Positions 8,137 through 49,774 of a stretch of DNA of 64,000 nucleotides are shown here, in pieces. How positions within the stretch are numbered: the first letter of the stretch is position 1; each line of letters opens with the position of its first letter. This DNA comes from Listeria ivanovii subsp. ivanovii (lineage in GTDB: Bacteria; Bacillota; Bacilli; Lactobacillales; Listeriaceae), in contig NZ_LT906478.1 of NCBI RefSeq assembly GCF_900187025.1, forward strand, positions 2,216,001 through 2,280,000, read 5' to 3'. The notes beneath the pieces were generated by a model. That model was not told where the DNA came from, made no database searches, and worked only from the letters and a program-made list of their open reading frames with translations. Both the position numbers and the translations under genes were made by a program.

Positions 8137-8151
8137 ACTAAATCCTCCTAA

Positions 8152-8985
8152 TTAGCGACTAGCAGCCATATTTTTCTCACTAGTCTTATAAAATCTTGTC
8201 TTCAAAAATGTCCAAGCTATCATTAGCACCATTCCAAGCGACTGAACAGCCATAATGATTGTAATATCAAAATAGATAAAACCAATCAGACATGCGGCAA
8301 TCACTGGAATTCCTAGTGCGTTTAATGTTAAATTTAATGATTCTTTAAAAGAAGCAATCTTTGAAAAGCTACTCCGTTTTGTCATCCAAATGAAAAGTGT
8401 TGTAAAGATAGCTAGCATGAGCGAACTCACGAAAACGATTGAACCAATCATCATCACCATGGATAGGAAAACAAATGCTTGGTTTTCTAAATACCACTGC
8501 GCCGAAATCCAATTAACCAGTGATTCTCCGGAAGTAATTTCCGCTAATGTGGCATCTTTTGGATAAGTTACTTCAAATGTATAACCACTCGCATCTTTAA
8601 GTTGCATTTCGTTTGCTTTGAGGTTAATCACATTCTCCGCACCTCTAAGTTCAGCATCGGTTAAGTTAACACCAGCAACTCCAGCATTCGATTTTTCTAC
8701 CAAATGGGCATTTTTATCGGTTAATTCTCCGTTTTCCAGTGATAAACTTTGGATGTCATTCGCGAATTGATCCGTTCCGAGTGTAGCCATTCCCGGCATT
8801 ATTTCTGGCAAATCAAAACTTGTTTGGTTAGCAAAATGAGCCGAAACTGGTAGTAATAGTAAAGCATTTAAGAAAATAAATACAATTACCATTTGCCAAA
8901 ATCCAAGTGCTTTCCGCCCATCAAAAATGGCATTTGGACCTAATGTGCTTTTTACATATTGAATGATAAATGGAATTTTTTTCAT
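8152..8985 (-). CDS. MalA-like maltodextrin utilisation membrane protein (DUF1189)
   Basis: A 277-residue protein with one N-terminal membrane helix (FWQMVIVFIFLNALLLLPVSA), an extracytoplasmic region of about 120 residues, and three C-terminal helices. This matches the DUF1189/YfhP-like proteins linked to maltose ABC importers and often annotated MalA; biochemical function is not established. I start at the ATG at 8985; a GTG three codons earlier sits too close to the ribosome site. It lies 18-30 bases from both neighbours in the maltose operon. Confidence 0.75.
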   Translation of the reverse strand: MKKIPFIIQYVKSTLGPNAIFDGRKALGFWQMVIVFIFLNALLLLPVSAHFANQTSFDLPEIMPGMATLGTDQFANDIQSLSLENGELTDKNAHLVEKSNAGVAGVNLTDAELRGAENVINLKANEMQLKDASGYTFEVTYPKDATLAEITSGESLVNWISAQWYLENQAFVFLSMVMMIGSIVFVSSLMLAIFTTLFIWMTKRSSFSKIASFKESLNLTLNALGIPVIAACLIGFIYFDITIIMAVQSLGMVLMIAWTFLKTRFYKTSEKNMAASR

Positions 8986-9012
8986 TGATATCACAGCCTT
9001 TTTAAAAATCGA

Positions 9013-9864
9013 TTAGCCTTTTGTTCCACCAGCAGTTAAACCAGAAACAAAATTCTTTTGTAAGAAGAAGAACAGTAAACAAATCGGTAATGCTGCAAGA
9101 ATAGCTCCTGCTGCGAATAACGCGACTTTTTGTTGTTGTGGGTTAGCGATAAACGTTTGAAGACCAACCGCAATCGTTAAGTTTTCTGGTGTTCTGAGTA
9201 AGAATTTGGCAAGTAGGAAATCGCCGAACGGCCCCATGAATGCCCATAATGCTTGAACTGCAATCATCGGTCTTACAAGCGGTAAAATGATTTGCGCGAA
9301 AATCCGGAAATGCCCTGCTCCATCGAGTTTTGCAGATTCATCCAGATCCCGTGGAACCGTATCAAAGTACCCTTTCATCAACCAAGTATTCATTGGAATT
9401 CCGCCACCGATATAAATCAATGTTAGGAACCAGTACTGGTCTAGTGCGCCTAAAAGCATTGCTAAAACGTAAAATGCTGTAAGAGCTGCCATTGTTGGTA
9501 CCATTTGGATGATTAAGAAGAAAATCAAGCTATTTTTCCGACCTTTGAAACGGTAACGGCTGTATGTATAACCAGCAAGCGTTACAATCGTTACTTGCAT
9601 AATCATCGTTACAACAGCAATAATTAGCGTATTTTTGTACCAATCAAGATAAAGTGTTTCGTTAAATAGTCTCGTAAAGTTATTAAGTGTCCAACTGTCC
9701 GACCACTCTAGCGTAAATGCTGCGATATTCCCTGGTTTAAAGGCAGAGGAGGCAGTAATTAGAATCGGATACAAAATAATAATCGTCAACACGGTTAAAA
9801 ACAAATATGTGAAAAACTGTGTTAAAAACTTCGTCGTCCGCTGATCTTTCATAAAGTCTCTCAT
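9013..9864 (-). CDS. malG: Maltose/maltodextrin ABC permease MalG
   Basis: Inner subunit of a carbohydrate ABC importer (MalFGK type), 283 residues with six membrane helices. The cytoplasmic EAA loop that docks the ATPase is visible as [21 protein letters not shown]. It follows malF directly (stop and start adjoin), implying coupling. No MalK/MsmX ATPase is encoded in the operon; in Firmicutes a shared MsmX-type ATPase encoded elsewhere normally energises such importers. Confidence 0.93.
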
Positions 9865-11172
9865 TTACATCATCTCCTCGTTTCCAAAGGCATTCGTTTT
9901 CTTAAAGGCAATCATCGAAACCGTAATGACGATAATTGAAATAAGTAGCGTCACAGCAGCTGCTACAGCATATTGTGGCGAAGTACCTGTTGTTAATTTG
10001 TAAATCCATGAAATCAGGATATCGGTTGATCCTGCGCCTGCTCCGACACTCCCGGGACCACCTTCATTAAATAAGTATATAATCGAGAAGTTATTAAAGT
10101 TAAATGTATATTGTGTAATAAAAACTGGCGCTGTTACGAATAAAATCATTGGTAAAGTGATTTTACGGAAACGTTGAATCGCACTCGCTCCGTCAATTCT
10201 CGCAGCTTCATAAAGTTCACCAGGAATTGCTTGTAAGACTCCTGTAACCATGACATAAATATACGGGAATCCAAGCCACCCTTGAATACTAATTAATGCT
10301 ACTTTTGTCCAGAACGGATCTGTCTTCCAAGCAATTGCATTCATATCCACAAATGGCAAGTGATTCAGTAATGGAATGACTTGTGTATTAATCGCTCCGA
10401 TACTGTCATTAAACATATTCGAGAAACTCATAATCGTGATAAACGCTGGAACCGCCCAAGGAAGCAAGAAAACAACTCCGAATAAGCGTTTTCCCTTAAT
10501 AAAGCTCTGGTTGGCAACAATTGCCGTGAATACTCCAACAACAATTTGTAAAGAAGTCGCACAAATTGTCCAAACAAGCGTCCACGAAAATACGCTTAAG
10601 AAAGTATCACGATACGAACTCAAGAAGAAAATATTGAAAAAGTTCTTAAAACCGACCCAGTCAATCAAATTAGCTGGTGGAATATGATAAAAGTCGTAGT
10701 TAGTAAACGCCATGAAAAGTGTTACTAATACTGGGAAAATAATTACAAAAGTCATAACTAAGTATGCTGGTAAGGTTAGTAAGTACGGAAAACCTTTATC
10801 GAACATATTTTTTATAATAGCAAGTGCGGATCTATTAACAGTTTCTCCCAAGTTCCACTCTTTAGCCACACGTCTTGCATCAAAAATATTTATAAACCAA
10901 AAGCCTATAAATAGTAATGTCACAATTAATTGTAAAGTACCTTCAATCATTAAGAATAAGGAATGGTCAACACCTGGAACTGATCCAAGTGTGATCAGGC
11001 CAATAAGTGCATTTAGGCCGATTGTAAAGAATTCTATGATAAACAAAGCAAATAATGCGAAAAAGACAATCCCTTTAAAATTTTGCTTATTATAAAATTG
11101 ACCAAGCCCAGGAATGATTGATAACAAAGTCGCTTTACGAACACTTTTTATCTGTTTTTGTTCTAGTTTCAT
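9865..11172 (-). CDS. malF: Maltose/maltodextrin ABC permease MalF
   Basis: Second permease subunit, 435 residues. The first ~120 residues add extra helices (LLSIIPGLGQFYN, VFFALFALFIIEFF) before the core domain, as in Gram-positive MalF/MdxF proteins. The EAA loop reads YEAARIDGASAIQRFRKITL. Works with MalG and lipoprotein MalE to import maltose/maltodextrins. The 88-base gap after malE contains a strong GC-rich hairpin. Confidence 0.93.
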   Translation of the reverse strand: MKLEQKQIKSVRKATLLSIIPGLGQFYNKQNFKGIVFFALFALFIIEFFTIGLNALIGLITLGSVPGVDHSLFLMIEGTLQLIVTLLFIGFWFINIFDARRVAKEWNLGETVNRSALAIIKNMFDKGFPYLLTLPAYLVMTFVIIFPVLVTLFMAFTNYDFYHIPPANLIDWVGFKNFFNIFFLSSYRDTFLSVFSWTLVWTICATSLQIVVGVFTAIVANQSFIKGKRLFGVVFLLPWAVPAFITIMSFSNMFNDSIGAINTQVIPLLNHLPFVDMNAIAWKTDPFWTKVALISIQGWLGFPYIYVMVTGVLQAIPGELYEAARIDGASAIQRFRKITLPMILFVTAPVFITQYTFNFNNFSIIYLFNEGGPGSVGAGAGSTDILISWIYKLTTGTSPQYAVAAAVTLLISIIVITVSMIAFKKTNAFGNEEMM

Positions 11173-11215
11173 TTTGTTACCCTCAATTCTAGATATAGAT
11201 TCACTGACTAAGTTT

Positions 11216-11256
11216 AAAAAAATCCGGCGGGCGCGCTACCTATGCCCCGCCGAATC
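11216..11256 (-). terminator. GC-rich hairpin after malE
   Basis: Stem CGGCGGG/CCCGCCG extended by an A-T pair, then a run of seven Ts on the minus strand, directly after the malE stop. It has terminator form but lies inside the operon, so it probably causes partial termination or stabilises the malE message, giving more binding protein than permease. Confidence 0.75.
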
Positions 11257-11260
11257 TTTA

Positions 11261-12523
11261 TTATTTCGTGTATTTTTGTGTTACATTATCTTCTATTACT
11301 TTCACCGCATCGTCTGCTGATTGTTGCGGTGTTTTAGAACCAGACGCTGCATCAAACATTAGATTTTCTGCGCCAGTCCATACTTCCGACATTTCTGGAA
11401 TATTTGGCATTGGTTGTGCATTTTTATATTGTTCGATAACGGCATTAGTCAATTCATCATTTTTAGATTGTGCTGTGTCGCGTGCTTTTAAGTTTGCTGG
11501 TACTTCATTTGTCATATCATAAAGTGTTTCTTGATTTTCTTGGTTTGTTACATAATCTAACCATTTTTGAGCTACGTCTTTATTTTTAGAATAGTTACTT
11601 ACAACCCAGCCTTTACCACCTGCAAACGGAGAATATTCTTTACCATTATCAAGTGTTGGGATTTTTGCTACACCATAATTAATTTTTGCTTCTTTATAGT
11701 TAGCCGCTGACCATGGTCCACCTAAGATTGCTGCTGTTTTTCCTTTGACAAATTGGTCTTGGATGAAGTCATCTGCACTCTTATTATCTTGCATTCCTTT
11801 TGGCCATACATCTTGGAACCATTTAGTTGCATAAGTAATTCCTTCAACAGAACCTTTATTGTTTAAGCCAATATCTTTTGGATTAGTACCTTCATCGCCG
11901 AAAACATAACCACCATATCCTGCAAGAAGACCGTAAGAGAAGTAGAAGTCAGTCCATTTAGCTAAGAAACCAGTGTTTTTACCTTTTTCAGAAGTGAAAG
12001 CAAAGCGAGGATCTTTAGCTAATGTTTCTAAGTCGTTAAAAGTTTCAGGAGCTTTATCAAGCAAGTCTTTATTATAGTAAAGAACTAATGTTTCAATAAT
12101 TGCTGGAGCACCGTAAATTTTATCATCAATGGTTACTTGTTTTTGATCTTTTTTATCATAATCAGCTTTATTATCAAGCTTCACTTCTGCCAAGTGCCCT
12201 TGTTGTCCAAGACTGCCGATTCTATCAAAAGCAGACATCATAACGTCTGGTGCAGTACCAGCAGGACCATCAAGTGGAAGTGCTTCAAGTGTTTCAAACA
12301 TATCTTTTTCCACTACTTTTACTTTTACATTGTTATCACTTTCAAAGTCACCTTTTATCTTGTTCACGTAGTCTTTGTAACCTGCGTCAACAGAAACAGT
12401 CAGTGTTTTTTCACCGTCAGACGAGCCCGATTTACTAGTATCTTTTCCACCACCACATGCTGCTAAGCTTAAAGCCATTACTAAAACCGCTGAAACTATT
12501 CCCACTTTTTTAAAACGCTTCAT
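11261..12523 (-). CDS. malE: Maltose/maltodextrin-binding lipoprotein MalE
   Basis: Substrate-binding lipoprotein of the ABC importer, anchored outside the membrane. The signal peptide ends in the lipobox LAAC (Cys23), followed by a Gly/Ser/Lys-rich tether. Mature sequence shows the family 1 solute-binding signature FVKGKTAAILGGPWSAANY and FAGGKGWVVSNYSKN. Length 420 residues is standard. It is the first gene of the operon and lies behind a promoter overlapped by a cre site and preceded by a LacI-type inverted repeat. Specificity for maltose or longer maltodextrins is inferred from malP and the GH13 enzyme. Confidence 0.93.
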   Translation of the reverse strand: MKRFKKVGIVSAVLVMALSLAACGGGKDTSKSGSSDGEKTLTVSVDAGYKDYVNKIKGDFESDNNVKVKVVEKDMFETLEALPLDGPAGTAPDVMMSAFDRIGSLGQQGHLAEVKLDNKADYDKKDQKQVTIDDKIYGAPAIIETLVLYYNKDLLDKAPETFNDLETLAKDPRFAFTSEKGKNTGFLAKWTDFYFSYGLLAGYGGYVFGDEGTNPKDIGLNNKGSVEGITYATKWFQDVWPKGMQDNKSADDFIQDQFVKGKTAAILGGPWSAANYKEAKINYGVAKIPTLDNGKEYSPFAGGKGWVVSNYSKNKDVAQKWLDYVTNQENQETLYDMTNEVPANLKARDTAQSKNDELTNAVIEQYKNAQPMPNIPEMSEVWTGAENLMFDAASGSKTPQQSADDAVKVIEDNVTQKYTK

Positions 12524-12614
12524 CTACTTTTCCTCCTTTTTATGAAAAAAGTCGCTCTATCTGCCTGATCTATTGGTCCCTTCTTTTTTCAATTCTTTTT
12601 CCAAGTTTGTGAAT

Positions 12615-12626
12615 TAGGTTAACCTA
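12615..12626 (-). promoter_or_regulatory. Palindrome at the malE transcription start
   Basis: Perfect 12-base palindrome TAGGTTAACCTA located at the predicted start point of malE transcription. Could be a repressor operator, but it does not match the inverted repeat upstream of the promoter; function is inferred only from position. Confidence 0.35.
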
Positions 12627-12633
12627 TGCATTT

Positions 12634-12663
12634 ATTATATGCTGATACCGAAAGCGTTTTCAA
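12634..12663 (-). promoter_or_regulatory. malE operon promoter with overlapping cre site
   Basis: Minus-strand -35 TTGAAA (12658-12663), 18-base spacer and -10 TATAAT (12634-12639). A catabolite-responsive element CCGAAAGCGTTTTCAA (12648-12663, 14 of 16 to the consensus) covers the spacer and -35. CcpA binding there would repress the operon in glucose. Confidence 0.85.
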
Positions 12664-12675
12664 GAAGATTTCACA

Positions 12676-12689
12676 TGTTACCGATAACA
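12676..12689 (-). promoter_or_regulatory. Maltose regulon operator (inverted repeat)
   Basis: TGTTACCGATAACA is an inverted repeat with the central CG typical of LacI-family operators. It lies 12 bases upstream of the malE -35. The same motif (one arm differing) lies exactly 12 bases upstream of the GH13 -35. The LacI-type protein encoded at 15422-16387 is the natural candidate to bind it. Confidence 0.7.
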
Positions 12690-12734
12690 ACATTTTTCTA
12701 AACAATATGTGAAAAATTCCTATACTATGCGGAT

Positions 12735-14510
12735 TTAGCTGTTTTCTTTGATAACAAGAAATCCTTTACCTGGTACGATGAGGTTTTCAGATACAACTTG
12801 ATTATTCCAAATATCCGTCGCTTGCTTCTCCAATGATATTGTGAAATCTTGATTTTCTACTGCTTGATTGAAAAGGAAATAAAGTTTTTCACCATTTAGT
12901 TCTCGTGTAAACGCCGTGATTCCAGTTTCGCTACTTGCCATAAGCCATGTTAATTCCCCGGATGTGATAATTTCCTGATTTTCTTTTCTTAGTGCAATGA
13001 GTTTTTTGGTGAAAGTAAGCATATCTTGATTTTGTTTCGTTTCGTCCCATTCCATACATTTACGACAACCTGGATCATTCCCACCATCCATACCAATCTC
13101 TGTCCCGTAATAAATGCACGGCGAACCAGTATGCGCGAACATAAATGCTAAAGCTTGTTTTACTTTATCACTATCGTTATTTGCTCTAGTAAGTATCCTA
13201 GCTGTATCATGACTGTCTAACATATTGAACATGACTTCATTTACTTGGTTTGGATAGCGCATATATTGCTCATTAATTCCTGAAAGCATTTGTTCAGGCG
13301 TGATTTTCTCCTCAATAAAGTTTTCGATAATAGTTTGTGTAAATGGATAGTTCATCACTGCATGGAATTCATCTCCAAGCAACCAAATCCATGAATCATG
13401 CCAAATTTCACCTAAAATATAAATATCTTCTTTTTCCGCTTGAACTGCCTTTTTGAATTCTTTCCAAAATGCATGATCCACCTCATTAGCTACGTCTAAA
13501 CGCCAACCGTCAATATCAAATTCGCGAATCCAATAAGTCGCAATATCAAGCAAATACGCTTGTACTTCTGAATTAGCCGTATTTAATTTTGGCATATGCG
13601 TTGTAAAAGCAAACGTATCATAAGAAAGTGTTGGTTCTCCCTCGATATTACCATTTTCATTTTGGCGAACAGGGAAACTGTGAATATGGAACCAATCGCG
13701 GTAACGAGATTTCTCTTCTTTTTCCACAACATCTTGCCATTCAGCAGACGTATCTCCAATATGATTAAATACAGCGTCTAGCATAATTCGAATACCACGT
13801 TTATGCGCTTCCTGTACTAATTTTCTAAATGCCTCTTTATCGCCAAAATGTGGATCAATTTTTTTATAATCAATCGTGTCGTATTTATGGTTCGTTGGTG
13901 CTTCAAAAACCGGTGTCAAATACACACCATTAATTCCTAATTCTACTAAGTAATCTAAATGCTGGATAATTCCTTCAATGTCTCCACCAAAAAAGTCTGT
14001 CGTGCTTGGCTCCTTACTTCCCCATGGCAGAGCATTTTCTGGTGAGATACTTGGATTCCCATTTGTAAAACGTTCTGGGAAAATTTGATACCAAATCGTA
14101 TTACCAACCCATTCAGGCGCGGTAAAAGTATCTACTGCATGGATAAACGGAAATTTGAAGTAATAATCCATCGTACCTAAGTTTGCTTCCGTTGCTTCAA
14201 AAAAGCCACGACCGCCGTAAAAGATAGTTTCTCCTTCTTTATCAGTAAGCAAAAAGCCATACTGCAAACGTCTATGTTCTGGTGTTACTGGAATAAACCA
14301 ATAATCATGCTCTTCTGTTTCTGCAATTTTTCGCATTGCATAAGACTTGCTCTGCCACTTTTCGTCTTTCCATAAATAAGGGTCGGCAGCAATTAAAGTA
14401 ACTTCGCTAATATCCAATCGTTTCGTCCTAATCCGAATATGTAGTGTTTTAGCATCATAACTATAAGCATAGCTACTAGCCGGTTGATGATAAATTCCTG
14501 CTTTTTCCAT
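12735..14510 (-). CDS. GH13 neopullulanase / maltogenic amylase
   Basis: A 591-residue cytoplasmic alpha-amylase family enzyme with the domain order N-terminal CBM34-like beta domain (1-120), (beta/alpha)8 barrel and C-terminal beta domain. The GH13 regions are intact: DAVFNH (245-250), GWRLDVANE with nucleophile Asp339, LGEIWH with acid Glu368, and LDSHD with Asp435. The CBM34 domain and YQIFPERFTNGN motif mark the neopullulanase/cyclomaltodextrinase/maltogenic amylase subfamily, which cuts maltodextrins to maltose for the phosphorylase. No signal peptide. It has its own promoter with cre and operator. Confidence 0.92.
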   Translation of the reverse strand: MEKAGIYHQPASSYAYSYDAKTLHIRIRTKRLDISEVTLIAADPYLWKDEKWQSKSYAMRKIAETEEHDYWFIPVTPEHRRLQYGFLLTDKEGETIFYGGRGFFEATEANLGTMDYYFKFPFIHAVDTFTAPEWVGNTIWYQIFPERFTNGNPSISPENALPWGSKEPSTTDFFGGDIEGIIQHLDYLVELGINGVYLTPVFEAPTNHKYDTIDYKKIDPHFGDKEAFRKLVQEAHKRGIRIMLDAVFNHIGDTSAEWQDVVEKEEKSRYRDWFHIHSFPVRQNENGNIEGEPTLSYDTFAFTTHMPKLNTANSEVQAYLLDIATYWIREFDIDGWRLDVANEVDHAFWKEFKKAVQAEKEDIYILGEIWHDSWIWLLGDEFHAVMNYPFTQTIIENFIEEKITPEQMLSGINEQYMRYPNQVNEVMFNMLDSHDTARILTRANNDSDKVKQALAFMFAHTGSPCIYYGTEIGMDGGNDPGCRKCMEWDETKQNQDMLTFTKKLIALRKENQEIITSGELTWLMASSETGITAFTRELNGEKLYFLFNQAVENQDFTISLEKQATDIWNNQVVSENLIVPGKGFLVIKENS

Positions 14511-41161: not shown

Positions 41162-41503
41162 ATGTTTACAAAAAAGAGAGTATTAATAATGTTAGCCACA
41201 GTTCTTCTCGCTGTCTGTGCTATTTGGGAGTACGCGATACCAACTGATGCAGCTGTTAAGTCCTATTACCTTAAAGTTGAAGAAGCCGGAAAACCTGTAC
41301 AAAAAAATCAATTTAAAGGTTATGAGTACGTATCGAAAGTATATGATGATAAAGGGAAACAAAAAACGCTTACTTTCTATTCCGAAAAACAATTAACAAA
41401 AGATAATCAATTCAAAATATTAATTGGCGAAAATAAAATGGTTGTTAATTATAAAAAAATTAAAAAGGTTCCTAACAGAATTAAATATTTAGCTGGACAA
41501 TAA
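41162..41503 (+). CDS. YxeA family (DUF1093) secreted protein
   Basis: A 113-residue exported protein: N-terminal signal/anchor helix (VLIMLATVLLAVCAIW) then a small beta domain with YYLKVEEAGKPVQKN and GYEYVSKVYDDKGKQKTLTFYSE, the DUF1093 pattern (an OB-like fold). Function unknown; related genes often occur in several copies and sometimes respond to cell-envelope stress. Ribosome site AGGAAGGATG. Monocistronic. Confidence 0.82.
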   Translation: MFTKKRVLIMLATVLLAVCAIWEYAIPTDAAVKSYYLKVEEAGKPVQKNQFKGYEYVSKVYDDKGKQKTLTFYSEKQLTKDNQFKILIGENKMVVNYKKIKKVPNRIKYLAGQ

Positions 41504-41552
41504 AAACGCCTTGCATGCACCTTTTAAAAAGGTTTTGCAAAGCGTTTTCAAT
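41504..41552 (+). terminator. Terminator of the YxeA-like gene
   Basis: AAACGC-C-TTGCA pairs with TGCAA-A-GCGTTT with one mismatch, followed by TTTC. Probably serves both directions. Confidence 0.75.
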
Positions 41553-41582
41553 TTTATAAGGCGATTCCATTACCTATTTATT

Positions 41583-41768
41583 TCATTCAGATAATTTCTT
41601 TTTCGCGTCGCCAGTTTTATCTTCTACTTCACCTTTAGCTTTTTGAGCTTTACCTTCGACTTGTTTTCCTTTGTCGTCAGTTGCTTTTCCAAACTTATCC
41701 TTAGCGTCACCTACTACTTTGTCTTTCAATCCTTTTGCCTTATCTTTCATGCCCTTATCTTCACTCAT
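41583..41768 (-). CDS. CsbD-like general stress protein
   Basis: A 61-residue, highly charged Lys/Asp/Gly-rich protein with the CsbD repeat (KGLKDKVVGDAKDKFGKATDD). CsbD-like proteins are hydrophilic, probably disordered, and sigma-B controlled in B. subtilis and Listeria; the molecular role is unknown. Strong ribosome site AGGAGGTCAT. Confidence 0.88.
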   Translation of the reverse strand: MSEDKGMKDKAKGLKDKVVGDAKDKFGKATDDKGKQVEGKAQKAKGEVEDKTGDAKKKLSE

Positions 41769-41829
41769 TAATATGACCTCCTAGATTAGAATTAGTTTCT
41801 AATGAAGAATGAATGTCTTCATACTAATG

Positions 41830-41855
41830 TGTTCCACTTTGACATAAAATTAAAC
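41830..41855 (-). promoter_or_regulatory. Possible sigma-B promoter of the CsbD-like gene
   Basis: Minus strand GTTTAA (41850-41855), 14-base spacer, GGAACA (41830-41835). The -35 fits sigma-B; the -10 matches GGGWAT poorly. Suggested mostly by the gene's family. Confidence 0.35.
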
Positions 41856-41862
41856 ATCTTTT

Positions 41863-42912
41863 TTAAATAGAGTGGATAGTTTGGTTCGTTTTGGCTGCTT
41901 GGAAGATTGCTTCAATCAGTTTTAAAACTTGATATACTTCTTCGTTTGAAACGATTGGTTCACTATCATTATTTAGCACATCTACAAAATTGTTATAAAA
42001 ACTAGTGGCTAATTTGCTTGGTGATACAAGTGGTAGAGTCTCCGTTGCTTTTTCGCTTGGTGGTGCCATGGTTTTCGTTAACCCTTGACCAGCTTGAATT
42101 GGCGTTGGTTCCGATAACTTAGCGAGAGCAGTTGGTTTAACAATTTCTCCACTCAAATCCCAATCTTGAATGATTCCTGTTCCTTCCGTACCTTTAACAT
42201 ACCAGCGAGGTAATTTGATGAAGTTGGTTGTCCCTACTTCCACTTGCGCAGTTATCCCATTTTCAAAAGTGATAAAAGAAACAAATCCATCATCTACTTC
42301 ATCCCCGAGCGCAAAACTTAAATTAGCTGAAACAGATTTCACATTGCTATCAATTAAGAATAGCAGTTGATCCAATAAGTGAACGCCCCAATCAAGTACC
42401 ATTCCACCACCATGCGCTTTTAGATGGCGCCAATCGCCTGGAATACCATTTGCTCCGTGTACACGTGATTCAAGATGAAAAATATCCCCAATTGTTTTTT
42501 GCTCCATCATTTCTTTGATAATCAGGAAATCCTCGTCCCAACGTCTATTTTGATGCACCATAAAATGTTTATTTTCTTTTTTAGCAGTATCCATAATAAC
42601 GAGTAAATCTTCACTTGTCATCGTAACTGGTTTCTCACAAACGACGTGTTTTCCAGCTTCTAATGCACGAATCGCCAATTCTTTATGACTATCATTGGGC
42701 GTTGCAATCAGTACTGCATCTACCTCGTCATCTGTTAAAACAGACTCAAAACTCGGGTAAATTTTCAAGCCTTTACCTGATGCTGCAACTCGTTTTTCTT
42801 CTAAAATATCAAATACACCGCGAACTTCTAAATTATCAGCAGCAGAAGCAAGTGTTACGTGATAACTCCCCATCCCGCCGTACCCAATAATCACGATTTG
42901 GTATTTTTTCAT
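41863..42912 (-). CDS. Gfo/Idh/MocA family oxidoreductase
   Basis: A 349-residue NAD(P)-dependent sugar dehydrogenase-like enzyme. Rossmann motif IIGYGGMGSYHV near the N-terminus, the catalytic CEKPVT segment (Lys in EKP) near residue 94, and GGGMVLDWGVHLLDQLLFL holding the active-site Asp/His. Last gene of a five-gene sugar operon that also encodes a second member of the family. Substrate unknown; enzymes of this kind oxidise inositols or the C3 hydroxyl of glycosides. Confidence 0.88.
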   Translation of the reverse strand: MKKYQIVIIGYGGMGSYHVTLASAADNLEVRGVFDILEEKRVAASGKGLKIYPSFESVLTDDEVDAVLIATPNDSHKELAIRALEAGKHVVCEKPVTMTSEDLLVIMDTAKKENKHFMVHQNRRWDEDFLIIKEMMEQKTIGDIFHLESRVHGANGIPGDWRHLKAHGGGMVLDWGVHLLDQLLFLIDSNVKSVSANLSFALGDEVDDGFVSFITFENGITAQVEVGTTNFIKLPRWYVKGTEGTGIIQDWDLSGEIVKPTALAKLSEPTPIQAGQGLTKTMAPPSEKATETLPLVSPSKLATSFYNNFVDVLNNDSEPIVSNEEVYQVLKLIEAIFQAAKTNQTIHSI

Positions 42913-42932
42913 TTCAAGACATCCTTCCTAAA

Positions 42933-43901
42933 TTAAGCCCACCACATATCCAGTGGCTTATCTTTTATCAAAATGGATTGTAAATTCGTCACAGCTCGGT
43001 CAAAACCTTCATCAATCGACATTAATGGATCTTCATGTTCAATACTAACTACATAATCATAACCATAAGTTCTAAGTGCACTCATAATGTCAGACCATTC
43101 TGTTAAACTATGCCCACATCCAACCGAACGAAAAGTCCAAGCACGTGTTTGCACATCTCCATATGGTTGCATATCTGTAAGTCCATACATATTAATGTTG
43201 TCTTGATCCAAATAAGTATCCTTCGCATGGAAATGGTGAATTGCACCTGCTTTTCCAAGAATTTTAATCGCACCAACTGGATCAATACCTTGCCACCATA
43301 AATGACTAGGATCAAGGTTTACACCAATGGCATCATTTGTTTCTTCACGCAATTTTAAAATGGTGTATGGCGTGTGGCAGAGGAAACCACCATGTAATTC
43401 AATACCAATTTTCACATCTGCTGCCGCTGCAAGTTCACCAATTTCTTTCCAATAAGGAATTAGTTTCGTTTCCCATTGCCAAGCTTTAATGTCGCTATAT
43501 ACGGTTGGCCATGGTATCACTGGCCAGTTCGGTGCTTTGGCATCATCGCTATCTCCTGCTGTTCCTGAAAATGTATTAACAACTGGCACATTCATTAAAG
43601 AAGCTAACTTAATCGATTTACGTAAAATTTCATCTGCCGCAGCCGCCTCTGCTTTATTTGGTGAAATCGGATTGTCGTGGCAACTAAAAGCACTAATTGT
43701 TAAACCACGGCTAGTAAACTTTTCTAAATACGCAATACGAGCTGACTCGCTTTCTAGTAGTTCATCTGTTGGACAATGATGGTTCCCAGGGTTTCCGCCT
43801 GTTCCAATTTCTACTGCATCTAGTCCAGCTGCTTTTACTTTGTCTAACATATCTTCTAGTGATAAATTTGCAAATAATGGTGTAAATACGCCTAATTTCA
43901 T
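42933..43901 (-). CDS. Sugar phosphate isomerase/epimerase (AP endonuclease 2 fold)
   Basis: A 322-residue TIM-barrel protein of the PF01261 family. Metal-site residues appear in IGIELHGGF, GVNLDPSHLWWQG, HFHAKDTY and SIEHEDPLMS. It resembles IolE/IolI-like and 3-keto-sugar-acting enzymes. One base separates it from the ThuA gene upstream. The exact reaction cannot be assigned. Confidence 0.87.
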   Translation of the reverse strand: MKLGVFTPLFANLSLEDMLDKVKAAGLDAVEIGTGGNPGNHHCPTDELLESESARIAYLEKFTSRGLTISAFSCHDNPISPNKAEAAAADEILRKSIKLASLMNVPVVNTFSGTAGDSDDAKAPNWPVIPWPTVYSDIKAWQWETKLIPYWKEIGELAAAADVKIGIELHGGFLCHTPYTILKLREETNDAIGVNLDPSHLWWQGIDPVGAIKILGKAGAIHHFHAKDTYLDQDNINMYGLTDMQPYGDVQTRAWTFRSVGCGHSLTEWSDIMSALRTYGYDYVVSIEHEDPLMSIDEGFDRAVTNLQSILIKDKPLDMWWA

Positions 43902-43902
43902 T

Positions 43903-44625
43903 TTATTTCCTCCCCATTTTTTCTAGTGGTTGATGATTCCCATATGCTGGATAGGTATCTCTTCCATTTGCGCACCAATGAACCCCGTTGATAATCACTT
44001 GCTGAATGTCTGGGTGATGGTATGTTGGGTAAGATTCATGACCTGGTTGGAAATAGAAAATCCGCCCATTTCCTCGTTTATACGTAATGCCACTTCGGAA
44101 TACTTCTCCACCTTCAAACCAACCTAAGAAAATTAATTCATCTGGCGCTGGAATATCAAAGTGCTCACCGTACATCTCTTCTTCGTCAAGCTCAATAAAT
44201 TCACCAATTCCTTTAGCGATTGGGTGAGATGGATCTACTACCCAAAGTCGCTCTCTTTCATTTGCTTCACGCCACTTTAAATCACAACTTGTTCCCATTA
44301 AGCGCATGAAAATTTTCGACATATGACCGGAATGAAGAACAATCAGCCCCATACCTTCTAATACACGTTTTTGAACTCGGTCGACAATGTTATCTTCTAC
44401 ACGATCATGGCCCATGTGTCCCCACCAAATAAGGACATCTGTGCTTGCAAGAACTTCTTCAGTAAGCCCGTGTTCTGACTCTTCTAGTGTAGCTGTTCCC
44501 GCATCGAAACCAGCTTTTTCTAGAAAATGAGCAATTTGTCCATGGATGCCATCTGGATAAATCGCAAGTACTGCATCATCTTCTTTTTCATGCAAAAATT
44601 CATTCCAAACTGTAACTCGTGTCAT
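43903..44625 (-). CDS. ThuA-like trehalose-utilisation family protein
   Basis: A 240-residue class I glutamine-amidotransferase-like domain protein of the ThuA family (PF06283). Patterns: [51 protein letters not shown], and [20 protein letters not shown]. ThuA proteins act with Gfo/Idh partners in catabolism of 3-keto disaccharides in rhizobia. In this operon it lies between two TIM-barrel isomerases, separated from each by one base. Confidence 0.87.
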
Positions 44626-44626
44626 A

Positions 44627-45367
44627 TTACTTCTCCTCCAATAAACTTGCTAAATAGTCGCGTCCTCTACTTACACTGATTAACGGATCTTCTTCAAATG
44701 CTTCTTGTTCAATAATCAGCCACTCGGAGCCACTGTTTAAAGCTGCGGTGATATATCCTTGAATATCTAATACCCCTTCTCCGATAATCGTGCTTTCTTT
44801 TTGCTTGGCAGACCTGTCTTTAATATGCACTAAAGGAAGTCGTTGCTGGTATTTTTCAATAAAGGGAATGACACCCACACCCGCGTACTCTAGCCAATAA
44901 GTATCTAATTCCACATTCATTCCTGGTACGTTTTCTAACAACATTTCGAGACTTGTTTGATTAGAAAGCCTCTCCAACTCGTGAGCATGATTGTGGTAGC
45001 TCAACGCAAGACCTGCTTCATTGATTGTTTGCGTAATTACTTGAAGTTGTTTGCTAAATTCAAACCATTCTTCTTCCGTTTCAAAATCTGCATAAGGACA
45101 TACAATATGCCTGTTTCCTAGTTCTTTTTCAAACAAAATCACATTGTCTAGATCCGCTTCTAATTGTTCTTTACTAATATGTGAACCTGCAACTTCTAGT
45201 CCAAGCTCAGCTAGTTTTGCTTTTATTTCATGAGCTGATTTCCCGTAATATCCAGCGAACTCCACACCGTCGTAACCCATTTCAGCCACTTTTTCTAGTG
45301 TTCCAAAGAAATCGAGTTCACAGGCTTCTTTGACACTCCACAATTGCAAAGCTATTTTTGCTTGCAT
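44627..45367 (-). CDS. Sugar phosphate isomerase/epimerase (second, short)
   Basis: A 246-residue TIM-barrel protein of PF01261, shorter than its neighbour. Seen: [37 protein letters not shown] at the N-terminus, [28 protein letters not shown] and [12 protein letters not shown] near the C-terminus; His, Glu and Asp of the metal site are present. YcjR/3-keto-sugar-type or inosose-type activity is possible. Confidence 0.87.
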
Positions 45368-45382
45368 AAAGATTCAGCCTCC

Positions 45383-46459
45383 TTAATTAAAATAAACTGG
45401 TTGTCCGGTTTTAGATGATTCATAAATGGCTTCTAAAATTTGTGTCACGACAAGTGCTTGTTCTGGTTTTACAACTGGCTCTGTATTGTTTAAAATTGCA
45501 TCCAACCACTGTTCTGCTTCGATTAACGCAGGATCATCTCCTTCACCGTCATAAAAATCTACGCCATCTGCATCCAATTGGATTTTCTTTTCGTACATTT
45601 GACTATATGCTTCTCCGTTAATTCGTAAACCGTCTTCCATATCTGCGCCGCCTTCTGTTCCACTAAGAGAAGTTCTTGCTTCACCAACATCTAGCGTATT
45701 AAGTGCCCAGCTTGCTTCTAAAACAATCGTTGCACCATTTTCCATTGTAATGAAACCAAATGCGGAATCTTCTACCGTAAATTTCTTTGGATCCCATGAA
45801 CCCCAAGCATTTGCTGCATTTTCTTTTTTGGCTAATTTATGATAACTATTTCCGACAACATATTTTGGTTTATAATTGTCCATCATCCAAAGCGTTAAAT
45901 CAAGTGCGTGGGTACCAATATCAATTAGTGGTCCACCGCCTTGTGCTTCTTCATCTAGGAATACGCCCCATGTTGGTACTGCACGACGACGAATTGCTTT
46001 TGCTTTTGCATAGTAAATATCACCTAGCTCGTTATTTTCACAAATTTGGTGTAAATAATCGGAGTCTTTACGGAATCTATTTTGATAGCCAATTGTTAGT
46101 TTCTTTCCAGTACGTTCTGCCGCTGCAATCATACTTTTAGCTTCTTCCGCTGTTTTTGCCATTGGTTTTTCGCACATAACATGTTTACCGGCTTCCATTG
46201 CTGCAATCGAAATTTCAGCATGCGAAATATTTGGTGTACATACGTGAATAACGTCGATTGATTTATCTTGGAGTAAGTCTTGATAATTCGTGTATACGCT
46301 TGCATTTTCTGCACCAAATTCTTTTGCTGCTGCCTCTGCTTTTTCTCGTACAATATCGCAAAAAGCAACCATTTCTGCTTTCTCAGCTTTTAATAAGCTT
46401 GGCATATGTTTCCCGTTTGCAATGCCTCCACAACCAATAATTCCAACTTTCAATGACAT
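45383..46459 (-). CDS. Gfo/Idh/MocA family oxidoreductase, first gene of the ThuA operon
   Basis: A 358-residue NAD(P)-dependent dehydrogenase-like protein. Rossmann motif IIGCGGIANGKHMPS, catalytic EKPMAKT, and QGGGPLIDIGTHALDLTLW. I start at the ATG at 46459 (ribosome site TTGGAGG); five further in-frame codons upstream lack one. First in the run dehydrogenase, isomerase, ThuA, isomerase, dehydrogenase, all closely spaced, so one transcript is likely. An inverted repeat lies just upstream. Confidence 0.9.
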   Translation of the reverse strand: MSLKVGIIGCGGIANGKHMPSLLKAEKAEMVAFCDIVREKAEAAAKEFGAENASVYTNYQDLLQDKSIDVIHVCTPNISHAEISIAAMEAGKHVMCEKPMAKTAEEAKSMIAAAERTGKKLTIGYQNRFRKDSDYLHQICENNELGDIYYAKAKAIRRRAVPTWGVFLDEEAQGGGPLIDIGTHALDLTLWMMDNYKPKYVVGNSYHKLAKKENAANAWGSWDPKKFTVEDSAFGFITMENGATIVLEASWALNTLDVGEARTSLSGTEGGADMEDGLRINGEAYSQMYEKKIQLDADGVDFYDGEGDDPALIEAEQWLDAILNNTEPVVKPEQALVVTQILEAIYESSKTGQPVYFN

Positions 46460-46474
46460 ATAAAAAACCTCCAA

Positions 46475-46504
46475 TAGTTTTGATAGTTACATCATACAAA
46501 ACTA
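46475..46504. promoter_or_regulatory. Inverted repeat upstream of the ThuA operon
   Basis: TAGTTTTG and CAAAACTA arms separated by 14 bases, between the AraC-type gene and the operon's first gene and 16 bases before its start codon. Could be an operator for the AraC regulator or an mRNA leader stem-loop. Confidence 0.5.
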
Positions 46505-46532
46505 CTAGAGGTATTTCTTCCTGTTTTATTGC

Positions 46533-47411
46533 TTAATTATTCCCGTATATTGCCTTCCTGTATTTAAGTGGTGCTACTCCCATCGCTCGTTTGAATGCAT
46601 GATGGAACGTTTTAACACTACTAAAGCCCGCAAGTTCTGCCACTTCAGTTACTGGAAATGCTTCATTTAATAGCATCCACTTCGCTTTATTGAGACGATA
46701 ATCATTTAAAAATGTCACAAAAGTCATTCCGGTGTTTCGCTTAAAAAACTTTGTAAAATAATAAGTACTAAATCCGGTATAGTCTGCTACTTCTTGCAAG
46801 CTAACAGGTTCCTGATAATGTTTTTCTACATAGGAAAAAATTTGATCTAATTTATGTAAAGTTTCTTGTGATTTAAGTACAGCTTGTTCAGAAATCACAC
46901 TGTCAGGCTGGGTTTTTATTTGTGGGATTGCACGGTAAATAAGTACAATAATCGATAGTAAATCCGCTTTTAAAATGTAGTGTTTCCCAGGTTTATCCTC
47001 GTTTGCCTCTGCGTGTATTTCCATAATCAGTGACTGCATGTTTGCAACAACTGCTTCTGGCCATTCTCTACTCAAATGAGCCATTTCTGTAAGCATTTCC
47101 CGAAGTGGTTTTCCCATGTCGTCCATCTGCATCTCTTCTTGAAATAAGCTTAAATCAAACTGAATAACAATCCGCTCACTATTTGGAGAAGCTAAAAAAT
47201 AATGGACATTCCCGCCGTTAATAACTTGAATTTCGCCTTCATTTAATTGAATCGGCATATCGTTTATCCCTAAATTCAAGCTACCTTTTAATGCGTAAAT
47301 TATTTCGATTTCTTTGTGCCAGTGAGGATACACAAGTACCTCACCCTCATTGATGAATGACCGAAAAGGAAAAGCTTTATTTAATTCCGGAATTTCCAAG
47401 TAATCACTCAT
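46533..47411 (-). CDS. AraC family transcriptional regulator
   Basis: A 292-residue regulator: N-terminal cupin sugar-sensing domain (VYPHWHKEIEIIYALKGSLNLGIND with metal-type histidines) and C-terminal double helix-turn-helix (HYQEPVSLQEVADYTGFSTYYFTKFFKRNTGMTFVTFLNDYRL; FPVTEVAELAGFSSVKTFHHAFKRAMG). It lies directly upstream of the ThuA/dehydrogenase operon in the same direction and probably activates it on sensing a sugar. Its own upstream gap (47412-47482) is short. Confidence 0.9.
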   Translation of the reverse strand: MSDYLEIPELNKAFPFRSFINEGEVLVYPHWHKEIEIIYALKGSLNLGINDMPIQLNEGEIQVINGGNVHYFLASPNSERIVIQFDLSLFQEEMQMDDMGKPLREMLTEMAHLSREWPEAVVANMQSLIMEIHAEANEDKPGKHYILKADLLSIIVLIYRAIPQIKTQPDSVISEQAVLKSQETLHKLDQIFSYVEKHYQEPVSLQEVADYTGFSTYYFTKFFKRNTGMTFVTFLNDYRLNKAKWMLLNEAFPVTEVAELAGFSSVKTFHHAFKRAMGVAPLKYRKAIYGNN

Positions 47412-47482
47412 AGTATAACTCCTCTTTTTTTCTTCATTTTATCATAAAAAAGAAGACAGCCGTTAGACTATCATCTTAAAGT

Positions 47483-48178
47483 TTATAAAATTAATGATTC
47501 ATATGGAATTTCGTTAAACAATTTTTCAGCATTGACAACGATTGGAATTTTCGTATAGAGTAAATAACCTTCTTTTTTTAGTTCGCTCAGTGTAAGACTA
47601 AGGTATTCCCGCGTTATCCCCATAAACTTAGATAAAAATGTAGTCGATAACTCTGGAGGAATTTGGATATTACTACCATTAGAAATTCCATATTCATATC
47701 CAAGCGCTGCAATAACATGCTTGACGCGATCTTTTACTTTAAGAGTATTCAGTAAACAGCGACGTTGCAGTATCATAATTTCTTTTTTGGATTGATAAAG
47801 CATAAATTCTTCCATGCTAACGTGTTTTTCAACCATAAAAATAAAGAAGTCTCTATCCACAGCTGTAATAACACTGGCTCTTGGCGATAATAGTTTAGCT
47901 CCCATATTTCGCTTTAATTCTAGGGACATAAAGGAAGCAAAATTACAAATATCACCTTGTTTTAATAATTGATTATACCCTATGTAATCATCAATTTGTG
48001 TTCCTTTCATAACGATCCCTGTTTCAACAAAATAAATACCGGTTACAAAATCAACATCAAATAGTTCATTTTTTGAAAGCTTAATACTCATACTATGTTT
48101 TGCAAAATCACCAGACTTCTTACAAAAGTGGAGTGGATTGACTAAAATTTCATGCTGCCTTTTTTCTAATGTATTCAT
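47483..48178 (-). CDS. Crp/Fnr family transcriptional regulator
   Basis: A 231-residue PrfA-like regulator with N-terminal barrel (LSKNELFDVDFVTGIYFVETGIVMKGT), dimerisation helix and C-terminal winged helix (IPPELSTTFLSKFMGITREYLSLTLSELKKEGYL). Ligand-binding residues of CAP are not seen. Monocistronic, minus strand, with a 249-base upstream gap that shares a 15-base sequence with another Crp/Fnr promoter in this window. Target genes unknown. Confidence 0.85.
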   Translation of the reverse strand: MNTLEKRQHEILVNPLHFCKKSGDFAKHSMSIKLSKNELFDVDFVTGIYFVETGIVMKGTQIDDYIGYNQLLKQGDICNFASFMSLELKRNMGAKLLSPRASVITAVDRDFFIFMVEKHVSMEEFMLYQSKKEIMILQRRCLLNTLKVKDRVKHVIAALGYEYGISNGSNIQIPPELSTTFLSKFMGITREYLSLTLSELKKEGYLLYTKIPIVVNAEKLFNEIPYESLIL

Positions 48179-48338
48179 TATGAATTCCTCCTCTAAAGTA
48201 TAATATCATACATCGAAATTACGTTAGAGATAGGATAAAACGAATTAACTATCATTCCAGCTTAAAAAGAAGATATTTTTTACTTTTTAAGTACCAAAAT
48301 CAAATTTTTTGTAGTTCAAAATGAATAAATAAGGATTT

Positions 48339-48353
48339 TTTGTGACATTTTTG
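48339..48353. promoter_or_regulatory. Shared 15-base motif in the Crp/Fnr upstream region
   Basis: TTTGTGACATTTTTG here is identical to 21237-21251, upstream of another Crp/Fnr gene. The TGTGA core is CRP-like but no complementary TCACA half-site follows. The remainder of the gap 48179-48427 is AT-rich with nothing else recognised. Confidence 0.35.
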
Positions 48354-48427
48354 TTTCGGGTTTTTTCGATGATTTTCAAACTTTTTCACCTTTTACACTT
48401 TAAAACCAATACTTATTAAGTTTATTT

Positions 48428-49099
48428 TTACAAGACATCCATATTTCTTATCACCCATGGTTTATGACTATCATCTAAAATTTCTTCTTTGCGTAATTTT
48501 AAGACAATAATGTTGGTATACTCTCGTGTCGTGTTAGCATATTGAGCCAAAATAGAGTTATTAATCTCTTCTGGTAAAATATATTCTTTTTCTTTCGTTA
48601 CTCGTCCCATATATAAACCGATATCTTTTAGACAAGCTCGAATACGTGCTTCTTTCTTCATAAAAGTACGCTTACTTGCTTTAAAATAAACTTTTCTTGT
48701 ATAAAGCAAATTAGACAATAAATAGAGTGCTTTTTGGTTCGACTCATCTAAAGCCTTTTCCACAAAACCAGGATCTAACACCCAACATTTTACTTCGGTC
48801 AAAGTACGTAAACTGGAGTCTTCAGGTTCTTCTTTAATGATTGGCACTAAATTAACAGCTACTTCATCTCCAACAAAACAAATAATCCCAGAATCACCTT
48901 GGTCATTTTGAAGACAATAGGCAAAATAACCACTTTCTACTAGATAAATTTTGAAATCATTGGAATCATTTAATATTATTTCTTGGCCTTTTGCTAGTGT
49001 TTCTTGATAACAATATGTATGAAAATCTTCCTTTTTCTTGAGTAGTTGTAGCAATGATTTTGTTGTTGCTTCTTTGAAAATCTCTTCATCTGAATACAT
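48428..49099 (-). CDS. Crp/Fnr family transcriptional regulator
   Basis: A 223-residue regulator: effector barrel (EIILNDSNDFKIYLVESGYFAYCLQND), long helix (NQKALYLLSNLLYTRKVYFKASKRTFM) and winged helix (LPEEINNSILAQYANTTREYTNIIVLKLRKEEIL). Its N-terminus shares the LLKK...F...C.QE pattern with the regulator at 21379-22080, suggesting paralogy. It is encoded upstream of another Crp/Fnr gene on the same strand but separated by 249 bases. Ligand and targets unknown. Confidence 0.85.
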   Translation of the reverse strand: MYSDEEIFKEATTKSLLQLLKKKEDFHTYCYQETLAKGQEIILNDSNDFKIYLVESGYFAYCLQNDQGDSGIICFVGDEVAVNLVPIIKEEPEDSSLRTLTEVKCWVLDPGFVEKALDESNQKALYLLSNLLYTRKVYFKASKRTFMKKEARIRACLKDIGLYMGRVTKEKEYILPEEINNSILAQYANTTREYTNIIVLKLRKEEILDDSHKPWVIRNMDVL

Positions 49100-49124
49100 T
49101 TTCTAACATCCTCTCATTTGTTTA

Positions 49125-49160
49125 CAAAAAAATGCAGAAATCAATATTTCTGCATTTTAA
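49125..49160 (-). terminator. Terminator of the metallo-hydrolase gene
   Basis: AAAATGCAGAAA pairs with TTTCTGCATTTT around a five-base loop; T-run on the minus strand. It overlaps the stop codon at 49157. Confidence 0.85.
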
Positions 49161-49774
49161 TTAAAATAGGGGTTCGTTGCTTTTTCATGACCAATTGTTG
49201 TCATCTCTCCGTGACCAGAATAAGCTCTCAAGTCATCTGGAAGGACAAATAATTCTGTTGTAATACTATTAATCAATGTATCAAAATCACCAGTATATAG
49301 GTCTGTACGACCAATACTGCCTTTAAATAGTGCATCGCCAACAATTACAAAGTCATCAAAAATAAAACTTAAACTCCCAACAGAATGTCCGGGTGTCGGT
49401 ACAACTTTAAAATGAAAACCTTCGATATTATATTCTCCAAGCTTAAATTCATGTTCTGCAGGATTAGCAACGATTGGTGTTCCTGCAATACGCGCAGATA
49501 GATTTAGTTCTGGGTTTGAAAGCCATTCTTGTTCTTTCGGGCTAACATAAACCGGAATCGAATAAGCTTTCCGAATTTTTTCCAAAGCTCCAATATGATC
49601 ATAGTGACAATGCGTCAGTAAAACTGCTATCGGCGTCACTTGAAGTTCCGCAATTACCGCTTCGATTTTACTTGCTTCTGCTCCTGGATCAACAATGAGC
49701 GCTAAGCTATCTTGATAAATAATATAGCAATTTTCTTGAATTATTCCAGTCATGATTCGTTTAATTTTTGTCAT
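49157..49774 (-). CDS. Metallo-beta-lactamase-fold hydrolase (glyoxalase II-like)
   Basis: A 205-residue hydrolase with the binuclear metal motif THCHYDHIG (His55, His57, Asp59, His60), the third histidine in PTPGHSVGS, bridging Asp in GDALF and a final His in YSGHGEMTT. Similar to YqgX-type glyoxalase II-like proteins that cleave S-lactoylglutathione analogues or other thioesters. I start at the ATG at 49774 (ribosome site GGAAGGTGG); ten upstream in-frame codons are less likely. It diverges from a glyoxalase I gene, which fits methylglyoxal detoxification. Confidence 0.88.
   Translation of the reverse strand: MTKIKRIMTGIIQENCYIIYQDSLALIVDPGAEASKIEAVIAELQVTPIAVLLTHCHYDHIGALEKIRKAYSIPVYVSPKEQEWLSNPELNLSARIAGTPIVANPAEHEFKLGEYNIEGFHFKVVPTPGHSVGSLSFIFDDFVIVGDALFKGSIGRTDLYTGDFDTLINSITTELFVLPDDLRAYSGHGEMTTIGHEKATNPYFN

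Follow-up and report, generated by a model that had tools for sequence, protein, structure and literature searches.

Non-hydrolytic glycoside breakdown is recent chemistry. In Agrobacterium tumefaciens, as set out in the accessible parts of PMC10628242 (PDB 8BVK, 8RO4), a short TIM-barrel eliminase (AtOGE), a long TIM-barrel hydratase (AtHYD) and a Gfo reductase together take a 3-keto-glucoside to glucose. The levoglucosan pathway encoded by lgdA-lgdB1-lgdB2-lgdC (PMC7676230, PMC10066097) runs through oxidation, elimination, hydration and reduction, the C-glycoside deglycosylation systems dgpABC/dfg employ a DgpA-type dehydrogenase, the rhizobial thuEFGKAB genes include thuA and thuB, and the E. 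coli ycjQRST genes, annotated as guloside and kojibiose genes, gather Gfo and PF01261 proteins around 3-keto-glucosides. These systems are compared here with an operon in a 64,000-nucleotide stretch of the Listeria ivanovii subsp. ivanovii genome (NZ_LT906478.1, positions 2,216,001 to 2,280,000; the window), which encodes two Gfo/Idh/MocA oxidoreductases (GfoA and GfoB), two PF01261 TIM barrels (TIM-S and TIM-L) and a ThuA protein. The operon probably encodes a non-hydrolytic route that frees glucose from glucosides by oxidation, elimination, hydration and reduction, and on its sequences it appears to be a well-supported variant of the known route, with ThuA as an added second arm. Homologies, the conservation of active-site residues, a match in fold and the fact that ThuA and TIM-S occur independently in related cassettes are the observations from which we infer every reaction, the division between alpha and beta linkages, the part played by GfoB and the substrate. 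A conserved Listeria operon that has so far figured only in lists and tables, in the parts of the literature seen, would thereby gain a function; a literature search on ThuA and 3-keto-glycoside oxidoreductases in Listeria, confined to open-licence papers, returned no title on this operon.

In the proposed route GfoA, with NAD+, would oxidise the glucosyl unit at its C3 hydroxyl. The resulting 3-keto-glucoside would be beta-eliminated to 2-hydroxy-3-keto-glucal, by TIM-S in the case of beta-linked glucosides, while ThuA would split a second class of 3-keto-glucoside, most likely alpha-linked. TIM-L would hydrate the 2-hydroxy-3-keto-glucal to 3-keto-glucose, which may be reduced to glucose by GfoA itself (DgpA is described with a ping-pong cycle) and/or by GfoB, such that the cycle would be redox-neutral. 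An earlier note on this DNA had suggested a 3-keto-glycoside pathway consisting of oxidation, cleavage and re-reduction. The 3-keto-glycoside reading holds by homology, fold and gene context, through the nearest relatives of GfoA, TIM-S and TIM-L and the likeness of ThuA to rhizobial ThuA, and the three steps survive within the proposed route, but the scheme was one step short, lacking the hydration of the eliminated glucal, for which TIM-L looks like the enzyme.

What is it about these proteins that points to such chemistry? Among the characterised proteins found, GfoA is by sequence closest to glucoside 3-dehydrogenase, with matches to DgpA1 (9m3d; 462 bits, 63.3% identical residues) and DgpA (7xr9; 436 bits, 57.3%). 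It contains the motifs EKP (Lys98) and DIGTH (Asp180/His184), and these three residues we take to be the catalytic residues of the family. Likewise, TIM-S is closest to 3-keto-glycoside eliminase, matching AtOGE (8bvk) at 92 bits over residues 5-241, with H125, H127, D155, H181 and E220 aligned to His132, His134, Asp163, His189 and Glu233 of AtOGE; the equivalent site residues, metal ligands and base His, are invariant in all 15 of the rows compared. TIM-L is by homology and fold closest to 2-hydroxy-3-keto-glucal hydratase, being 51.6% identical to an LgdB2-type protein labelled from cluster context and size. The two barrels are not one function duplicated. The same short and long barrels with a Gfo protein make up the A. 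tumefaciens operon, from which the Listeria operon differs in having a DgpA-type dehydrogenase of its own, an AraC regulator, and a ThuA, none being named in the accessible text of PMC10628242. From the levoglucosan pathway, with which it shares the four steps, it departs in that its Gfo proteins score 114.4 and 84.4 against the 650 bits of the NCBIfam LgdA model, TIM-S is only 25% identical to an LgdB1-type protein, GfoB does not figure in the list of best matches to an LgdC-type protein, and ThuA is extra.

The role of GfoB is harder to place. Its strongest match (700 bits) is to 3e18, named only 'oxidoreductase', and its closest named relative is DgpA2 (9m37; 207 bits), not LgdC; it contains EKP (Lys94) and DWGVH (Asp174/His178) and sits in a separate, long-branched clade of the Gfo tree, a tree in which several long branches meet and which was used only to group close rows. 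DgpA2 was solved with isoorientin, and this, together with the 57-63% identity of GfoA to DgpA and DgpA1, would suit a C-glycoside deglycosylation cluster like dgpABC. Such an identity for the operon is nevertheless very unlikely, as a DgpB-like small beta subunit is absent from it, all five proteins belonging to other families, and TIM-S, which it has in place of DgpC, resembles an O-glycoside eliminase. Two side observations concern these proteins: the GfoB of Listeria grandensis (L060:10058-10801) is a shorter reading frame of 247 residues, possibly degraded, and the Gfo protein of a record titled Sphingomonas sp. PsM26 (L130) clusters closely with that of Peribacillus muralis, so that this contig may be contamination.

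Degradation of inositol or another cyclitol, which the earlier note had named as the contrary outcome, is very unlikely. By E-value the top NCBIfam match is IolG for both Gfo proteins and IolE for both TIM proteins, yet the scores (140 and 125 of 355 bits for IolG, 61 and 31 of 290 bits for IolE) lie far below the curated cut-offs for all four, TIM-S carries the AtOGE site and GfoA is a close relative of DgpA. It is also very unlikely that the operon epimerises glycosides via a 3-keto intermediate without splitting them, the guloside reaction ascribed by annotation to the E. coli YcjQRS proteins. GfoA shares 36.5% identity with YcjS, and the Listeria relative of YcjR shares a Pfam family with both TIM genes; YcjR itself, however, gives only 31 bits with TIM-S and no significant match with TIM-L, and a YcjR-like gene lies elsewhere in the genome. 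The E. coli system differs further in its other TIM proteins and in its zinc dehydrogenase YcjQ, and a DNA search of E. coli genomes found no GfoA relative. The YcjR-like gene belongs to a second locus of 3-keto-glucoside type in this genome (L153; G000:C1:2890000-2908000), in which YcjQ, YcjR, YcjS and YcjT of E. coli have counterparts at 75%, 71%, 55% and 48% identity, accompanied by genes for an ABC transporter, a GH13-family protein and a glycerate kinase.

ThuA matches 1t0b at 377 bits and belongs to the rhizobial subfamily, being 59.0% identical to Sinorhizobium meliloti ThuA over 234 amino acids; the weaker ThuA-domain matches found lie at 24-36%. The likeness to ThuAB drawn earlier is borne out for ThuA and falters for ThuB, of which neither Gfo protein is a clear ortholog: ThuB reaches no more than 28-29% identity with any Gfo row compared, its best match in that set is an LgdA-type protein (28%), and GfoA, GfoB and their close orthologs lie outside its top eight. 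The S. meliloti thuA locus consists of an ABC transporter, thuA and a Gfo gene, whereas the Listeria operon is without a transporter and adds the two barrels. ThuA has no agreed function, and here one becomes directly testable, in that its neighbours would make its likely substrate, a 3-keto-glucoside, and consume the expected product. Likely roles would also follow for structures solved without an assigned function, namely 1T0B, 3E18 and, by fold only, 2ZDS.

The relationship between ThuA and TIM-S emerges from their occurrence in other genomes. Named genome contigs from 84,980 species, one genome each, were scanned with a ThuA alignment, which gave at least 80 loci; relatives within these were detected at E 1e-20. 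In all, 114 loci were examined: these 80, L152 and L154, 20 picked mostly for TIM-L without ThuA, and 12 more, the window's own locus not being among them. With a cassette defined as GfoA (at least 55%) and TIM-L (at least 44%) on one strand within 5 kb, a threshold below which L233 falls (TIM-L 42%), 27 cassettes were found, with both ThuA and TIM-S in 11, ThuA only in nine, TIM-S only in four and neither in three. One of the 11, L071, has its TIM-S-like gene 4 kb away. A TIM-S-only cassette in G268 keeps the remaining Listeria order (GfoA 71%, TIM-L 74%, GfoB 58%) in a genome with no ThuA match anywhere. ThuA and TIM-S thus vary independently of each other against a constant background of oxidising and hydrating enzymes, a pattern that suits two alternative sources of one intermediate better than two consecutive steps.

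For the division of labour between them the literature offers some guidance, within the accessible parts of the two sources. AtOGE cleaves 3'-keto-cellobiose, a beta-glucoside, and not the alpha-linked 3'-keto-maltose (PMC10628242); rhizobial ThuAB is linked to trehalose, maltitol and sucrose isomers by a title cited in PMC4765114; and a Paenibacillus JDR-2 thuAB-like pair, whose ThuA may belong to this subfamily, is tabulated in that paper under 'Maltose utilization' with values of 8.8 and 8.1, its text describing higher expression on maltose. On these grounds TIM-S is proposed as the beta arm and ThuA as the alpha arm. A GH13 alpha-glucosidase-like family (for example in L074) occurs in seven of the 80 listed ThuA loci, all seven without detected TIM-S, although this is a weak pointer to substrate and suggestive only, since TIM-S is present in just 14 of the 80. 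The full arrangement is put forward tentatively, as something possible that falls a little short of probable: one operon would combine two unrelated splitters divided by anomer (TIM-S for beta and ThuA, a glutamine-amidotransferase-like fold acting as a carbon-oxygen lyase, for alpha) with a single hydratase and a redox cycle that primes itself, and each lineage would keep either or both arms per cassette according to diet.

The weakest step of the proposal is ThuA as a lyase, a role assigned from its company with TIM-L. Several observations stand against the scheme. The S. meliloti stretch, in a gene table that is incomplete, lists no TIM barrel beside thuA, which would suit either a hydrolase or a lyase. 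In 24 of the 80 listed loci about 10 kb of surroundings showed neither TIM-L (at least 50%) nor a Gfo relative, so that ThuA is not tied to this route; one of the 24, L126, carries a 42% TIM-L relative. Three of the 27 cassettes show neither arm. Contig ends cut two of them, L193, which starts inside GfoA, and L198, on a 5.4 kb contig where another PF01261-like gene adjoins GfoA; the third, L202, is not cut and has no candidate among the families tested. Arm independence holds per cassette and not always per genome, as G046 and G243 have ThuA-only cassettes together with TIM-S relatives (39% and 37%) elsewhere, that of G046 sitting in another cassette (L236), which has TIM-S only. L236 and L206 (the latter in G292) are two of the four cassettes with TIM-S alone, and the genomes of both have ThuA at another place. 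With 80 of the 114 loci picked via ThuA, TIM-S-only cassettes are under-sampled, and the rows compared are not phylogenetically independent. As for TIM-L, it is only distantly related to AtHYD by sequence, and the LgdB2 label of its comparison protein comes from cluster context and size and not from the B. smithii sequence.

A rather unlikely alternative is that ThuA is a hydrolase turning 3-keto-alpha-glucosides directly into 3-keto-glucose and aglycone, with TIM-L serving the TIM-S branch only. The S. meliloti locus, where thuA is accompanied by an ABC transporter and a single listed Gfo gene, agrees with it, and another family, DUF1080, is reported as a 3-ketotrehalose hydrolase in the part of PMC9007349 seen. 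It is weakened by the 46 of 80 listed loci in which TIM-L (at least 50%) lies near ThuA, as 33 of these are without a detected TIM-S-like gene and TIM-L would there have no obvious substrate. The association of TIM-L with ThuA, on which the assignment of ThuA as a lyase depends, extends to 398 sampled genomes of the phylum, where TIM-L (E below 1e-80) occurs in 13 of the 18 genomes that have the ThuA subfamily at E below 1e-70, and in 17 of the 380 that lack it, a tally made by eye (Fisher p ~1e-12, uncorrected for kinship).

Table 1. Genes of the operon and its probable regulator, with positions in the window; families are Pfam matches above gathering scores.
Gene	Position	Strand	Length (amino acids)	Family match	Proposed role
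GfoB	41863..42912	(-)	349	Gfo/Idh/MocA oxidoreductase; PF01408/PF02894	3-keto-glucose reductase or second glycoside dehydrogenase
TIM-L	42933..43901	(-)	322	long PF01261 barrel (112 bits)	2-hydroxy-3-keto-glucal hydratase (LgdB2/AtHYD type)
ThuA	43903..44625	(-)	240	PF06283 (132 bits)	second 3-keto-glycoside-splitting enzyme, possibly for alpha-glucosides
TIM-S	44627..45367	(-)	246	short PF01261 barrel (61 bits)	3-keto-beta-glucoside eliminase (AtOGE type)
GfoA	45383..46459	(-)	358	Gfo/Idh/MocA oxidoreductase; PF01408 (116.9 bits) and PF02894	glucoside 3-dehydrogenase (DgpA type)
AraC-family regulator	46533..47411	(-)		PF12833 (79 bits) and PF02311	likely operon regulator

All six genes (Table 1) proved to be of the families first read from the letters, five packed enzyme genes and an AraC gene. 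The gaps between GfoA, TIM-S, ThuA, TIM-L and GfoB are 15, 1, 1 and 20 bases, and 73 bases separate GfoA from the AraC gene, which has the same orientation. For GfoA the ATG at 46459 is the preferred start, a GGAGG ending eight bases upstream of it, and the listed TTG at 46474 seems less likely. It had also been claimed that the operon is without a transporter, kinase or glycosidase, which the Pfam matches confirm, each of the five enzymes falling in another family, and a scan of nine proteins from 41162 to 49099 found no ABC transporter.

The window as a whole is 81.7% identical to two L. monocytogenes records. In a set of 25 Listeria genomes that includes that of the window, ThuA, TIM-L and GfoA (at least 75%) co-occur in the same 20 and are jointly missing from the same five, while TIM-S (at least 57%) is found in 19, being additionally missing from G007. 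As GfoA, ThuA and TIM-L are present or missing together, the operon genes behave as one inherited module and not as a chance grouping. TIM-S diverges faster than its neighbours: in 12 Listeria genomes its identity to the window's protein is 70-76%, against 92-97% for ThuA, TIM-L and GfoA. A second, weaker TIM-S relative (29%) lies in this genome at G000:C1:873679-874440, and a 26-30% relative is found in 18 of the 25 genomes overall. In one of the 20, a genome of 83% completeness, ThuA is split across two frames (G015:C1:2162593-2163390), through assembly error or a broken gene, and another holds a further cluster (G004:C20:93222-106920) with a 61% GfoA relative, another Gfo protein and partial TIM-L relatives. 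Beyond the genus, an AraC gene (46-66%) lies upstream of GfoA in Paenibacillus and Vagococcus cassettes, as it does in those of Listeria. The Paenibacillus-type cassettes L061, L074 and L154 have TIM-L at 85-86% and GfoA at 80-82% identity to Listeria, with ThuA at only 68-69%, which suggests transfer between groups or uneven constraint. Locus L228 (G090:C14) combines TIM-L (86%), GfoB and AraC, with no match to GfoA, ThuA or TIM-S within the stretch fetched. ThuA proteins of this subfamily, 67-69% identical, are encoded on haloarchaeal contigs too (L108, L121, L125), where a cut-off of E 1e-20 revealed neither a TIM nor a Gfo partner. In two Enterococcus loci a sulfatase, a PP-loop protein and a cation ATPase follow the cassette, which is of no help on the substrate.

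With regard to import, many relatives, chiefly in Bacillaceae, lie beside binding-protein ABC transporter genes (the permease family in 19 and the binding-protein family in 17 of the 80 listed loci), and LacI regulators occur in 11 and 10 of them. The window's genome has at least two such ABC systems, one in the ycj-like locus L153 and one (9013-12523) in a maltose-type cluster of the window. This cluster, across 5875-14510, comprises GH65, ABC permeases, a solute-binding protein and GH13, and is a possible import route for alpha-glucosides not far from the operon. Regulation is not readable from motifs, as scans of 41400-49300 for promoters (20 against 27.3 expected) and terminators (3 against 4.2 expected) were at chance level and a catabolite-repression-like pattern (21 against 15.1 expected) was reached in 11 of 100 shuffles. 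From their order, the genes are presumably the counterparts of lmo2159-lmo2163 of L. monocytogenes. Matched on that assumed numbering, and within the accessible parts of both papers, Lmo2160 and Lmo2161 appear in a sigma-L protein table (PMC3721983), and LMRG_01669-LMRG_01673 are given as one unit (lmo2163) in a bile study (PMC6737072).

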